Origin: Nitrospirae bacterium GWC2_42_7
GTDB taxonomy: Bacteria; Nitrospirota; Thermodesulfovibrionia; Thermodesulfovibrionales; UBA6898
Length of the DNA stretch: 12,060 nucleotides
Direction: 5' to 3'
Assembly: GCA_001803645.1 (NCBI GenBank)
Contig: MHDW01000201.1
Span: 1-12,060, forward strand
The position numbers and the translations under genes are program-made. Positions 1,972-8,276 of this stretch are shown piece by piece; positions within the stretch are counted from its first letter, which is position 1; each line of letters starts with the position of its first letter. Under the pieces are notes generated by a model. It saw only the letters and a program-made list of their open reading frames with translations, had not been told where the DNA came from and did no database searches.

Positions 1972-2052
1972 AGGAGAAAATTGTTTTATGTTTTTTTCTC
2001 ACAATGAGTGGGTAAAGTTTCTTTCTTTTGAGAGAGGACGTTCTATTTTATT

Positions 2053-2188
2053 CCTCTCCCTTGAGGGGAGAGGGTAGGGAGAGGGTGATTAAATAATGGT
2101 AAAAGGATTAATTCATCTTGCAAAAGACCTCAGAAAAAGATCAAAGGAGGACACCCTCCCCTTAATCCCCTCCCCTCAAGGGAGGGGA
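2053..2188. repeat. G/C-rich inverted-repeat element, copy 1 (two arms and a spacer)
   Basis: The left arm (2053-2090) starts with an 8-bp hairpin, CCTCTCCC at 2053-2060 pairing with GGGAGAGG at 2066-2073. The right arm (2152-2188) contains CCCCTCCC at 2167-2174 pairing with GGGAGGGG at 2180-2187. Each arm is approximately the reverse complement of the other, so the unit can also fold as one long imperfect hairpin around a spacer of about 60 bases. Bases 2152-2187 are identical to 6501-6536. No run of T follows either hairpin, so these are not standard intrinsic terminators. The 1972-2281 gap holds this element, the remnant frame in its spacer, and about 80 plain bases on either side. Confidence 0.85.
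2096..2151 (+). pseudogene. Possible N-terminal remnant of a DUF559 (Vsr-like) endonuclease
   Basis: An ATG just after the left repeat arm opens a frame whose first 19 residues include LIHLAKDLRKRSKE. This resembles the conserved N-terminus of DUF559 proteins (an LA-x-LR-K/R pattern followed by T/S-x-A-E), which are PD-(D/E)XK-fold, Vsr-related endonucleases. After 18-19 codons the similarity stops where the right repeat arm begins. The frame then reads through the repeat and happens to run in phase into the tolC-like gene. I treat it as a decayed fragment, not as an N-terminal extension of that gene. The family match is from memory of the pattern and the fragment is very short. Confidence 0.35.
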
Positions 2189-2266
2189 ACAAATAATGGA
2201 AGATACTCCCTTCGGAGGCTGGGAAGTAATTACCTAAACAATATCAGAAAAAAGCGTTCTAAGTCT

Positions 2267-2273
2267 GAAGGAG
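2267..2273 (+). promoter_or_regulatory. Ribosome binding site that fixes the tolC-like start
   Basis: The sequence GAAGGAG at 2267-2273 lies 8 bases before ATG 2282. It supports this start over the in-frame ATG at 2096, which lies upstream of repeat DNA and would bury the signal peptide 62 residues inside the protein. Confidence 0.85.
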
Positions 2274-2281
2274 ATTATAAA

Positions 2282-3613
2282 ATGAAAAAACAAAATGTTT
2301 TTTTTAGTGTTGTTTTTTTAGTGTTTATACTTTTTATACTTATTAACGAAAGGTCTGCTTCTGCAGATGTAATTACCCTGTCAGAAGGGCTGAAGCTTGC
2401 TACAGACAACAGCAGACTGGTAAAAATAAGCCAGACAGAAGAACTGATGTCAGGTGATGATTCCATGATCGCAATGGCAAAGATGCTGCCGAACATCAAT
2501 GCGTCAATGAGCAAGACTTCACTGAAATATCAACCCACAGCTGTTATGACTACTGATCTAGGCACTCTGAAGGTGGCTGTGTCTGAGAGGGATTTTTATA
2601 CATATAGCCTGAGTGTTCAGCAGACACTCTTTGATTTCTGGGGAAATTACTCAAAATATAAAGCCAGCAAGATTTTGATAGATGCGAAAAAACTTGATAC
2701 ACGAAGAATAAAAAACCTTGTTGCTATTGATTTTGTTCTTATATATTTAGATCTTCTTGAATCAGAGAAGATGCTTTTGGTTGCTGAAAAAGAGGTTGAG
2801 AGGCTGGAGTCCCATCTGAATAAGGCAAAGATCATGCATGAAGAAGGTGTAATCACAAAAGATGATCTTCTTCAGGCGGAAGTAAAGATATCCGATGGCC
2901 GCCAGAGGCTGCTTACAGCCAGGAACATCAGGGCATTAAATGCATCAAGACTTAACAACTCTCTCCTCAGACCTTTGAGATCAGAAGTCCAGACAGTTGA
3001 TATTGACGGCCTCAGCTCAGAAACATCCGGACTTGATATCGAAAAAGCCTGGGAAATTGCAGAAAAGGAAAGGGCTGAAGTCCTGATAGTTGATGAGACC
3101 CTGAAGTCTCTTAATCTTGAAAAAAAGGCAAAGGTCTCCGAGTTTTTCCCAAAGTTCTTCTTAAGGGGAGGCTATGATTACACAGAGAACCGTTTTCAAC
3201 TGTATGAGGAAAACTGGTCGATCATGTTCGGTATAAACATTAATCTGTTCAATGGAGGCAGTACAAGGGCTGAGGTATCAAAGATAAAACATCAGAGCGA
3301 AAAACTTATTGAACAAAGGAACAAATTGGTCGATGATGTAAAGCTTGAGGTTGAGAAATATATTCTAAATTCTCAATCTGCGGCAGAGAGATTAAAGGTT
3401 ACAAGTGGTGCGATCAATCAGGCAGAGGAGAGCCTTCGGATCAACAGGTTGAGGTATGAAGAAGGAGTCGGCATAGCAACAGATGTTATGGATGCTGTTA
3501 CATTGCTCACTGTTGCCGAGTCCAACTATTATAGGTCTTTATACGACCTGCGAAAGGCTGAAGCAGCTGTCTTGTATTCAATAGGAAAAGAAATATCGGA
3601 GGTTTATAAATAA
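2282..3613 (+). CDS. tolC: TolC-family outer-membrane efflux channel
   Basis: The 443-residue product has a strong signal peptide (residues 1-28: lysines at 2-3, a hydrophobic stretch, and cleavage after SASA before D29). It shows the two-fold OEP repeat of TolC proteins. Each half has a strand segment near LPNINAS (first half) or FFPKFFLRGGYDY (second half), followed by long charged helices. Aromatic-rich strand segments such as YSLSVQQTLFDFWGNYSKY and SIMFGININLFNGGS would form the outer-membrane barrel, and the helices the periplasmic tunnel. The protein is a trimeric exit duct for tripartite pumps. It lies between a MacB-type ABC pump and an EmrAB-type MFS pump, so it could serve either or both. 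The frame is open upstream to 2096, but the signal peptide and the ribosome binding site place the start at 2282. Repeat elements flank the gene on both sides. Confidence 0.93.
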   Translation: MKKQNVFFSVVFLVFILFILINERSASADVITLSEGLKLATDNSRLVKISQTEELMSGDDSMIAMAKMLPNINASMSKTSLKYQPTAVMTTDLGTLKVAVSERDFYTYSLSVQQTLFDFWGNYSKYKASKILIDAKKLDTRRIKNLVAIDFVLIYLDLLESEKMLLVAEKEVERLESHLNKAKIMHEEGVITKDDLLQAEVKISDGRQRLLTARNIRALNASRLNNSLLRPLRSEVQTVDIDGLSSETSGLDIEKAWEIAEKERAEVLIVDETLKSLNLEKKAKVSEFFPKFFLRGGYDYTENRFQLYEENWSIMFGININLFNGGSTRAEVSKIKHQSEKLIEQRNKLVDDVKLEVEKYILNSQSAAERLKVTSGAINQAEESLRINRLRYEEGVGIATDVMDAVTLLTVAESNYYRSLYDLRKAEAAVLYSIGKEISEVYK

Positions 3614-3616
3614 TAA

Positions 3617-3729
3617 CACCCCCCTTTGATCCCCTTACGGAAATCATAACTCCCCCATCCCCCTCTTATCTTAAGAGGGGGTGTCCGAAGGACGGGGGCG
3701 TTATCTTAAGAGGGGGCAGGGGGGAGTTA
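3617..3729. repeat. G/C-rich inverted-repeat element, copy 2 (divergent)
   Basis: The core is a perfect 10-bp hairpin, CCCCCTCTTA at 3659-3668 and TAAGAGGGGG at 3672-3681, with a 3-base loop. The G-rich strand of that hairpin is repeated directly: TTATCTTAAGAGGGGG occurs at 3666-3681 and again at 3701-3716. Bases 3649-3668 are nearly the reverse complement of 3707-3728, making a larger nested inverted repeat. A small GTCC-GAA-GGAC hairpin sits between them at 3683-3693. The element fills almost the whole tolC-emrA gap and ends about 14 bases before the emrA start, so it would lie in the leader of any tolC-emrA transcript. No T-run follows. Confidence 0.85.
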
Positions 3730-3742
3730 AAGAGAGGATGAA

Positions 3743-4855: not shown

Positions 4856-6381
4856 ACAAATGGATCATTGCGTTAACAGTTATGCTGCCGACGCTTATCG
4901 AGATCATCGATACTTCGGTAGTAAACGTAGCGCTTGACAGCATACGCGGGAGCCTTTCTGCAGGGATTGATGAGTCAACATGGACAATAACTTCCTACCT
5001 TGTATCAAATGCCATTATTATTCCGATGACAGGATGGCTCAGCAGGGTATTCGGCAGAAAACGCTATCTTATGCTTTCTCTTAGTCTATTCACTGTAAGT
5101 TCCCTGTTTTGCGGTTTTGCCTGGAGTCTTCAAAGTCTTGTTTTCTTCAGGATACTTCAGGGGATAGGAGGCGGTGCGCTTCAGCCCATATCACAGTCAA
5201 TTCTGCTTGAAACCTTCCCAAGGAAAGAACACGGCATGGCAATGGCCATATTCGGCGTGGGAATAATGTTCGGTCCTATTATAGGGCCTCTTCTTGGCGG
5301 ATGGATCACGGACAATTGGTCATGGCACTGGATATTCTTTATCAATATACCGATAGGAATAATATCAATGCTGATGATAATGTTTGTTATCGTTGACCCT
5401 CCATATATGAAACGCATGAAGATGAAAATAGACTACTGGGGACTTTCCTTGCTTGCAGTAGGCCTTGGATGCCTCCAGATAGTGCTTGATAAAGGCCAGA
5501 TGGAAGACTGGTTTGCTTCGAGTTTTATTACATCGCTAACAATGATCTCGGTTGTTTCTCTTGTGCTTTTCATTATCGTAGAAATGTTTGCTGAACATCC
5601 GATAGTAAATCTCAAAACCTTTAGAAACATTTCATTCAGTACAGGCAACATTGTTATGTTTTTCGCCTTTTTTAATCTTTTTGGAAGTATTGTGCTTTTG
5701 CCAATCTATCTCCAGACACTCATGGGATATAACGCAACCCTTGCCGGAATGGTGCTCGGCCCGGGAGGCCTTGCAACGCTTGTAGCAATGCCGGTTGCTG
5801 GCAGGCTTGTGACAAAAATGAATCCAAAAATTCTCCTTGCTTTCGGAATAATCATATCAGCATATTCAACATACCTCATGTCACAGTTCAATCTTATGGC
5901 AGACTTTAATACAATTATATGGCCGAGGGTTGTGCTTGGCGTAGGTATGGGTTTTCTCTTTATTCCCCTTACAACAATGACAATGTCCAGTATAAGCAAG
6001 GAAGACATGGGAAACGCATCATCAATATATAATCTTCTGAGGAATCTCGGCGGAAGTTTCGGGGTTGCTTTTGTGACAACCATGCTTGCAAGAAGGTCTC
6101 AGTTACATCAGGTCCATCTTTCAGAGCATTTAACCCCGTTCGATAATGTATTCCAGATAACATCCCAAAATACAGCTCAGGCCCTACAGTTCGGAGGATT
6201 GACGCCTGATGCTGCCAGTCACAGCGCAATTGGTATAATATATTATAAGATGATCGAACAGGCATCAATGATGTCGTTCAATGATACATTTTATCTCTTG
6301 AGTTTGTTTATGTTATTTGTTCTGCCTCTGGTTTTTTTTATGAAAAAGGGAAAGACGGATGCAACTCCAGGGATGCATTGA
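4852..6381 (+). CDS. emrB: EmrB/QacA-type (DHA2) MFS drug exporter
   Basis: This 509-residue inner-membrane protein has the length and hydrophobic pattern of the 14-helix DHA2 family of proton-driven exporters. Visible family motifs are D1 (IDTSVVNVALDSI, residues 19-31), motif A (GWLSRVFGRKR, 61-71), motif B with its arginine (R100-ILQGIGGG, to 108), and the antiporter motif C (GVGIMFGPIIGPLLGG, 135-150). It shares a 4-base overlap with emrA, and together with the upstream TolC-like channel makes a complete tripartite pump. Known EmrAB-TolC systems export hydrophobic compounds such as uncouplers; the substrate here cannot be read. A C-terminal basic tail follows the last helix. The gene is followed by a 200-base gap filled with hairpins and a repeat element. 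Confidence 0.95.
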   Translation: MNKWIIALTVMLPTLIEIIDTSVVNVALDSIRGSLSAGIDESTWTITSYLVSNAIIIPMTGWLSRVFGRKRYLMLSLSLFTVSSLFCGFAWSLQSLVFFRILQGIGGGALQPISQSILLETFPRKEHGMAMAIFGVGIMFGPIIGPLLGGWITDNWSWHWIFFINIPIGIISMLMIMFVIVDPPYMKRMKMKIDYWGLSLLAVGLGCLQIVLDKGQMEDWFASSFITSLTMISVVSLVLFIIVEMFAEHPIVNLKTFRNISFSTGNIVMFFAFFNLFGSIVLLPIYLQTLMGYNATLAGMVLGPGGLATLVAMPVAGRLVTKMNPKILLAFGIIISAYSTYLMSQFNLMADFNTIIWPRVVLGVGMGFLFIPLTTMTMSSISKEDMGNASSIYNLLRNLGGSFGVAFVTTMLARRSQLHQVHLSEHLTPFDNVFQITSQNTAQALQFGGLTPDAASHSAIGIIYYKMIEQASMMSFNDTFYLLSLFMLFVLPLVFFMKKGKTDATPGMH

Positions 6382-6445: not shown

Positions 6446-6538
6446 TTCCCTCCCCCTTGAGGGGGGAGGGTTAGGGTGGGGGTGATTGAGATGCTTGTTT
6501 CACCCTCCCCTTAATCCCCTCCCCTCAAGGGAGGGGGG
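6446..6538. repeat. G/C-rich inverted-repeat element, copy 3
   Basis: The left arm (6446-6484) carries a 9-bp stem, CCCTCCCCC at 6448-6456 with GGGGGAGGG at 6462-6470. The right arm (6501-6538) carries CCCCTCCC at 6516-6523 with GGGAGGGG at 6529-6536. The arms are imperfect reverse complements of each other, separated by only about 16 bases. The right arm is identical over 36 bases to 2152-2187, and the left arm is clearly the same sequence as 2053-2090. Copy 3 therefore looks like copy 1 with nearly all of the spacer lost. Confidence 0.88.
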
Positions 6539-8050: not shown

Positions 8051-8076
8051 CTGTTACTAATTAATACCTTTCAGAG

Positions 8077-8251
8077 ACCCACCCCTTAATCCCCTCCCAA
8101 GAGGGGACTTCTAAAAAAGACTAACCTCCCCGGCGCCCCTCCTTGGTAAGGAGGGGATTGAAAGACAGAAAGACTTGGATATAATCCTCCTCTTTACAAG
8201 GGGACTTGCCTACCGGCAGGCAGGGGCGAAGGAGGGGTGTAGGGGTGGGTT
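8077..8251. repeat. Composite inverted-repeat element, copy 4, in a convergent gap
   Basis: Outer arms at 8077-8097 and 8231-8251 are reverse complements except for a few bases around TAAT/TGTA. Inside are a perfect 9-bp hairpin (CCCCTCCTT at 8136-8144 with AAGGAGGGG at 8148-8156), a partial copy of the C/T-rich arm at 8087-8106, and a near-palindrome GCCTACCGGCAGGC at 8208-8221. The element lies between the convergent ends of the protease and maf genes, so transcripts from both sides would run into it. It may serve as a bidirectional transcription barrier or 3'-end stabiliser. It has no T-run on either strand directly after a stem. Confidence 0.83.
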
Positions 8252-8276
8252 ATCTCTTGTGTTGCAAATTTCATAT

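Follow-up and report, generated by a model that had tools for sequence, protein, structure and literature searches.

A decayed arm-DUF559-arm element in a Nitrospirae genome, and a proposed nuclease-based repeat system

The window, i.e., the whole stretch of DNA analysed here, comprises 12,060 nucleotides of Nitrospirae bacterium GWC2_42_7 (contig MHDW01000201.1, C201 below) and belongs to a genome assembly (GCA_001803645.1, G000 below) of 2.58 Mb in 238 contigs that is 70.8% complete. Between what we take to be a MacB-like permease gene and a TolC-like gene, positions 2053-2189 hold two inverted arms around the beginning of a gene of the DUF559 nuclease family (PF04480). A first reading made from the letters alone (the sequence-only reading) had described two near reverse-complementary arms enclosing an ATG-initiated frame, and this was confirmed: the left arm (2053-2087) and the reverse complement of the right (2152-2187) match in 30 of the 36 columns of their alignment, and inverted-repeat detection returned 27 nucleotides at 89% complementarity. 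Each arm consists of a hairpin and then a third, G-rich block. The frame (ATG at 2096, translation MVKGLIHLAKDLRKRSKE) does not end where the right arm begins, as had been thought, but stays open through that arm and continues into the TolC-like open reading frame (ORF; 2096-3613). The relic is fused in frame to this ORF (start near 2284), with a repeat-encoded LPLIPSPQGRG inside, and annotation may therefore give the TolC-like protein a false N-terminus.

The enclosed fragment was identified through an intact element elsewhere in the same genome (contig C138, locus L001), which carries a 133-residue DUF559 gene and has the same arms and gene start as the window. The 137 window bases match it at 92% identity (query bases 1-96, E 4.1e-33), the right arm also matching, and the relic translation has its counterpart in MAKGLTQLAKGLRKRSTD of the intact gene. 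Globally, the two align end to end with one 287-base gap (GGA at the joint) and one single-base gap against the 425 bases of L001. The window copy is therefore an internal deletion of an arm-DUF559-arm element, which bears out both the internally deleted relic and the full arm-gene-arm unit that had been proposed. A profile comparison, suggested at the same time, matched 0 Pfam families with the 21-residue fragment alone, which is too short; its identity as DUF559 stands because of the DNA alignment to L001.

PF04480 matched the window's genome in six places, five of them full length (108-136 bits against a cut-off of 20.6), and by eye all five intact genes have palindromic arms on both sides, in four different arm sequences. 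We scored arms as the best inverted match between the 200 bases on either side of a DUF559 gene, with a threshold of 14: three of the five reach it, L004 scores 13.5, and L003, where N-masking hides part of the upstream region, scores 8.0. The sequence-only reading had staked itself on intact DUF559 genes not lacking such arms, and arms flank these genes as well as most of those in the four samples described below. The window element has 72 matches in its own genome, mostly to the arms (40 of 145 candidates were scored), which excludes a chance origin of these arms.

Together, the copies form a readable series from the intact gene (C138) through deleted genes (the window, C149 and C190) to short-spacer, gene-less pairs (among them C201:6448, C196, C121, C177, C183 and C224). 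Several gene-less pairs at different sites have the spacer TCAGTTGTT or TAAGTTGTT in common, some with similar outer flanks, and the minimal pairs L014, L016, L027 and L015 likewise combine similar spacers with different sites, so that the arm pair itself seems to have multiplied as a unit. The pair at C201:6448 had been regarded as the same element with its gene lost; it does have the same arm pair and no gene, and may have arisen by gene loss, as an empty unit or as a self-spreading unit. Six other loci (L022, L025, L026, L029, L030 and L034) hold a ~120-base repeat with two motifs in opposite order within an outer inverted repeat (TTACTAATG..GTCATTA / TTACTAAGGAGTTCATAAGTAAG), which looks like a separate non-autonomous unit.

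Beyond this genome, 34 of 46 DUF559 genes from relatives in the family and order reached the arm threshold, and 40 exceeded a score of 11. A second sample, hereafter the named loci (the 80 most like L001 among 562; L086 and L106 repeat L065 and L066), gave 65 of 78, or 64 of 77 without the N-run artefact at L102. Short flanks kept L119, L129 and L268 from being scored, and the last 60 bases of the match were included in the scoring, for controls alike. By record titles, the named loci come from Nitrospirae, Proteobacteria, Aminicenantes, Clostridia, Omnitrophica, Chloroflexi and others. Because these loci had been chosen by likeness to L001, two further samples were scored at the fixed threshold. 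The class of an Alcanivorax genome, the Gammaproteobacteria, gave 16 of 19 (22 full-length matches, of which L209 had been scored earlier and two had no locus), and newly fetched loci of the window's own phylum gave 21 of 23 (24 fetched; best-scoring ones, not all matches). An additional 29 loci (23 at or above threshold) are not counted as a separate sample, since several repeat named loci. Of the control ORFs taken from these loci, all ~150 codons or longer, only 10 of 574 scored at least 14 (1/132, 9/416 and 0/26), and only four of these ten have motif-like arms. It is thus well supported that the arm-DUF559-arm unit recurs in many kinds of bacteria.

Phages and plasmids were considered as carriers and rejected: with one query protein for each collection, DUF559 matched 3 of 50,697 records from phages and 45 of 72,556 from plasmids, several of the latter looking, to judge by length, like chromosomes filed as plasmids. 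PADLOC, run on four of the five proteins, returned only partial matches to longer models (best E 1.5e-7). One genome of the same phylum (G192), with 13 DUF559 matches, several of them fragments, would suit a study of active or recent expansion. At L090 and L091, a different inverted repeat (TTAACCGCAAAGGACGC...) surrounds several ordinary control ORFs.

Arms and nucleases are also linked in sequence. Protein identity and arm similarity correlated across the 46 relatives (990 pairs; Mantel r 0.644, 0 of 999 permutations) and across 79 named loci (r 0.313, 0 of 999 permutations). This comparison took the place of a ranking of all downstream arms for each upstream one, which put the true partner first in 8 of 46 cases, arms being shared among related elements. 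Among the relatives, the median arm score was 18.75-20.75 at protein identities of at least 60% and 9.0 at 30-50%; pairs within one genome at 30-50% identity had medians of 8.5-9.0. Arm sequence tracks nuclease subfamily, and purifying selection acts on the DUF559 gene.

Repeats of the BoxC, PIT or triplex type have been known since the 1990s, and we know of no enzyme that moves them. The arms are repeats of this kind, named BoxC or PIT in E. coli, and share their build: a stem strand A, a loop, its complement A', a second loop (such as TTA, TT, CC or CT in the parsed arms) and a third strand as the mirror of A'. Over 184 arms, the fit of the third block to the stem mirror (G matched to G, A to either A or T) was 0.852; a direct repeat reached 0.766, other arms 0.737 and shuffled sequences 0.724, and arm by arm the mirror was better than the direct repeat in 84 cases, worse in 16 and tied in 84. 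Because the families differ in arm sequence, this covariation argues that it is a triplex-capable strand that is conserved. PMC4666352 describes the motif, with TTA or CCG as types of second loop, from more than 260 genomes, counts five inverted pairs in E. coli, and reports that the isolated strand of that species forms a triplex in vitro, a stable one in vivo not being supported.

An idea that the left and right arms, when snapped back, would form T.G mispairs suiting a Vsr-like enzyme (second loops TTA vs. CCG) found no support: identical loop pairs numbered 7 against 4.0 expected by re-pairing, in the 70 of 126 loci with the motif parsed on both sides, so that mismatching pairs are not in excess. 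Beyond the arms, an outer inverted motif GTGTGGGTA occurred in 10 of 92 flanks among relatives (1 on the opposite strand, 2.0 in shuffles) and in 7 of 158 flanks of named loci (3 and 4.0, respectively), and is probably real in some elements, not general. An outer inverted motif around GTGTGGGTAA lies beyond the arms of L001, L041, L049, L080, L084 and L269 and at 1994-2019 of the window, and L229, L251 and L231 have much longer inverted ends.

A comparison of filled and empty sites had been proposed for close strains; two sites proved polymorphic, between species rather than strains: one species has the element at the site, and relatives have nothing, a solo motif or a relic there. The L078 element (in G024) lies between two genes whose counterparts are close together in eight relatives (within ~0.3 kb in five; 1.3-1.4 kb apart in G014, G023 and G017); none of the eight has a nuclease gene at the site by tblastn, and a solo motif is present in three of them (G004, G016 and G025). 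At the L082 site, G004 retains the right motif and, of the gene, roughly the final 17 bases; G011 has neither, and in G025, G016 and G026 only the left flank matches. Filled and empty alleles, as homing calls for, thus exist at both sites; by eye no target-site duplication was recognised at either, their borders not being base-exact.

The solved folds nearest to the DUF559 protein are a gonococcal DUF559 protein, a homing-endonuclease domain and Vsr, so that the closest fold outside DUF559 is that of a homing endonuclease and the protein is, by fold, a homing-family nuclease. The gonococcal protein, NGO0050, is the solved structure 3hrl, and its gene is flanked on each side by motifs in direct orientation. 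In E. coli, where the DUF559 gene is ycjD, a 1001-base stretch surrounding it is at least 80% present in 3364 of 5426 genomes; three inspected strains without that stretch have efflux genes at the site, as PMC12817139 describes. A DUF559 frame at L084 (ORF 5066-5443, minus strand) carries, between two conserved blocks, an in-frame stretch derived from the motif (PLSPPLIKGDLGG).

We think it fairly probable that the feature in the window is a decayed copy of a discrete element whose nuclease acts on its own arms and which spreads by copying, and the reading that we judge best is a nuclease-based repeat system, homing- or REPIN-like. We infer the action of the nuclease on the arms, its causing of the spread and the route taken. 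Such a small nuclease of Vsr/homing fold would recognise its own cognate motif, probably when single-stranded and folded as a hairpin plus third strand, and would nick or cut there; through break repair or replication, a further motif-bearing site would then receive a copy of the single motif, of the pair or of the complete arm-gene-arm unit. On this view lone motifs and pairs without a gene would represent either empty sites or non-autonomous offspring, and internally deleted gene copies, including that in the window, would be relics. Along a homing route the paired motifs would be the empty sites, along a REPIN-like route the moving units, and traces of both are seen. More tentatively, and as a possibility on which we remain divided, these may be bacteria-wide selfish elements, in which a single-domain Vsr/homing-fold nuclease would read intrastrand-triplex DNA at its own inverted ends and spread, gene-less pairs too, by transposase-free copying driven by nicks or breaks, with BoxC/PIT/triplex repeats, those of E. 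coli included, as its progeny.

Several observations weigh against a nuclease spreading its own arms. A motif counted by hand, covering one arm pattern only, occurs in 13 of 22 relatives with a full DUF559 gene and also in 11 of 39 without one, a modest association. Some DUF559 genes are without the full arrangement, among them E. coli ycjD, with motifs downstream only, and only one of six plasmid-collection records taken from the tblastn list reached the arm threshold. Y1_Tnp, the domain of RAYT-type transposases, has matches in 49 of 61 relatives. The last point, with the similar look of REP/RAYT units (PMC3733652), would suit RAYT-like HUH transposases moving the motifs in trans, with DUF559 as a passenger; yet Y1_Tnp was found neither in the window's genome, at its 70.8% completeness, nor in G046 (99% complete), each of which has at least one armed DUF559 gene (L001 and L049), and the arms covary with DUF559, which makes such a passenger improbable.

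Homing alone, i.e., a nuclease gene that is the only mobile part and enters existing motif pairs through break repair, the motifs themselves spreading by other means (replication slippage or another enzyme), would agree with the homing-endonuclease fold, with the solo motifs that three of eight relatives have at the site orthologous to a filled locus and with the existence of gene-less pairs. Arm sequence, however, follows nuclease subfamily across genomes beyond expectation for a gene landing in independent repeats, and the minimal pairs with similar spacers at different sites suggest that pairs spread too; we hold homing alone to be unlikely, if worth keeping in view. We give little credence to DUF559 as a host repair or defence nuclease with arms as transcription terminators or regulators insulating the gene: its Vsr-like fold and the functional link of a Caulobacter DUF559 protein, VsrA, to a cytosine methylase (PMC12907096) speak for it, and against it stand tens of gene-less arm copies, several differently armed DUF559 genes in one genome, sites polymorphic between relatives, and earlier work, as told in PMC4666352, that found neither promoter nor terminator activity in PIT elements. 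Since arm families are multicopy, abundant arms might flank some genes by chance, an explanation that we regard as refuted and of negligible probability because control ORFs so rarely reach the threshold (10/574, against 34/46, 64/77, 16/19 and 21/23 for DUF559).

The features of the window are collected in Table 1. These 12 kb seem to carry arms that match several DUF559 subfamilies of the window's genome and its relatives, since further triplex-type motifs at 3619-3735 and 8076-8258 resemble other arm families.

Table 1. Coordinates of the element and related motifs in the window.
Feature	Positions	Strand	Basis
Possible outer terminal motif (TTCTCACAATGAGTGGGTAAAG), outside the arms in a minority of elements	1994..2019	+	
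Left arm, BoxC/triplex-type motif (hairpin + third G-rich block)	2053..2090	+	First 42 bases from 2053 identical to L001
5' remnant of DUF559 gene (MVKGLIHLAKDLRKRSK...)	2096..2148	+	92% DNA identity to L001 (query bases 1-96); global alignment
Deletion joint, 287 element bases gone, GGA at joint	2146..2151	.	Alignment to L001
Right arm, BoxC/triplex-type motif, inverted	2152..2189	-	97-100% copies at many genome sites
Motif like the L002 DUF559 arm family (CCCCCTCTTATCTTAAGAGGGGG...), gene-less	3619..3735	.	Compared by eye
Minimal left arm - 14 nucleotides - right arm pair, gene-less (copy 3)	6448..6537	+	38 nucleotides, 79% complementary
Motifs of two further arm types, gene-less	8076..8258	.	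By eye like L081 and L057/L004 arm types

If true, the proposed system would give a role to DUF559 (E. coli YcjD, solved structure 3hrl), would show that repeats can be spread by a nuclease in place of a transposase, and would suggest an enzyme that reads a triplex-forming strand. The arm-DUF559-arm unit may explain how BoxC repeats, a long-known bacterial family, spread, and with a dedicated nuclease paired with BoxC/PIT repeats their origin becomes a bench question, for one small protein and one 40-base oligonucleotide. The accessible portions of the literature surveyed, which took in few subscription papers, contained no link of DUF559 or ycjD with BoxC/PIT or flanking repeats.

Among known systems, Vsr mismatch endonuclease is related to DUF559 by fold only and differs in genetic setting and proposed role. 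From homing endonucleases of the I-Bth0305I kind, the DUF559 unit differs in that no intron or conserved host gene was seen as target, multicopy structured repeats forming the frame instead. As generally understood, miniature inverted-repeat transposable elements are, like the copies here, internally deleted and multicopy with inverted ends; here there is no transposase parent, and by eye no target-site duplication was recognised at the two polymorphic sites. BoxC/PIT repeats resemble the window arms in their hairpin, TTA/CCG-type second loop and third G-rich block, and are likewise intergenic, multicopy and sometimes in inverted pairs; a 2015 study (PMC4666352) states that it never found remnants of transposases or integrases near them, whereas here a nuclease family lies between cognate arms in many kinds of bacteria. 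The parallel that the sequence-only reading drew with REP sequences and their RAYT transposases survives in architecture, i.e., cognate arms, one enzyme and gene-less pairs, and fails in the enzyme and in the repeat type. REP/REPIN units with RAYT (REPtron and TIRtron; PMC3733652) share with the DUF559 unit inverted palindromic arms, one small enzyme gene and gene-less copies as putative non-autonomous units, but the RAYT enzyme is an HUH tyrosine transposase with GTAG-tagged repeats, whereas the gene between the repeats here is PF04480, a PD-(D/E)XK-type nuclease with triplex-type arms.
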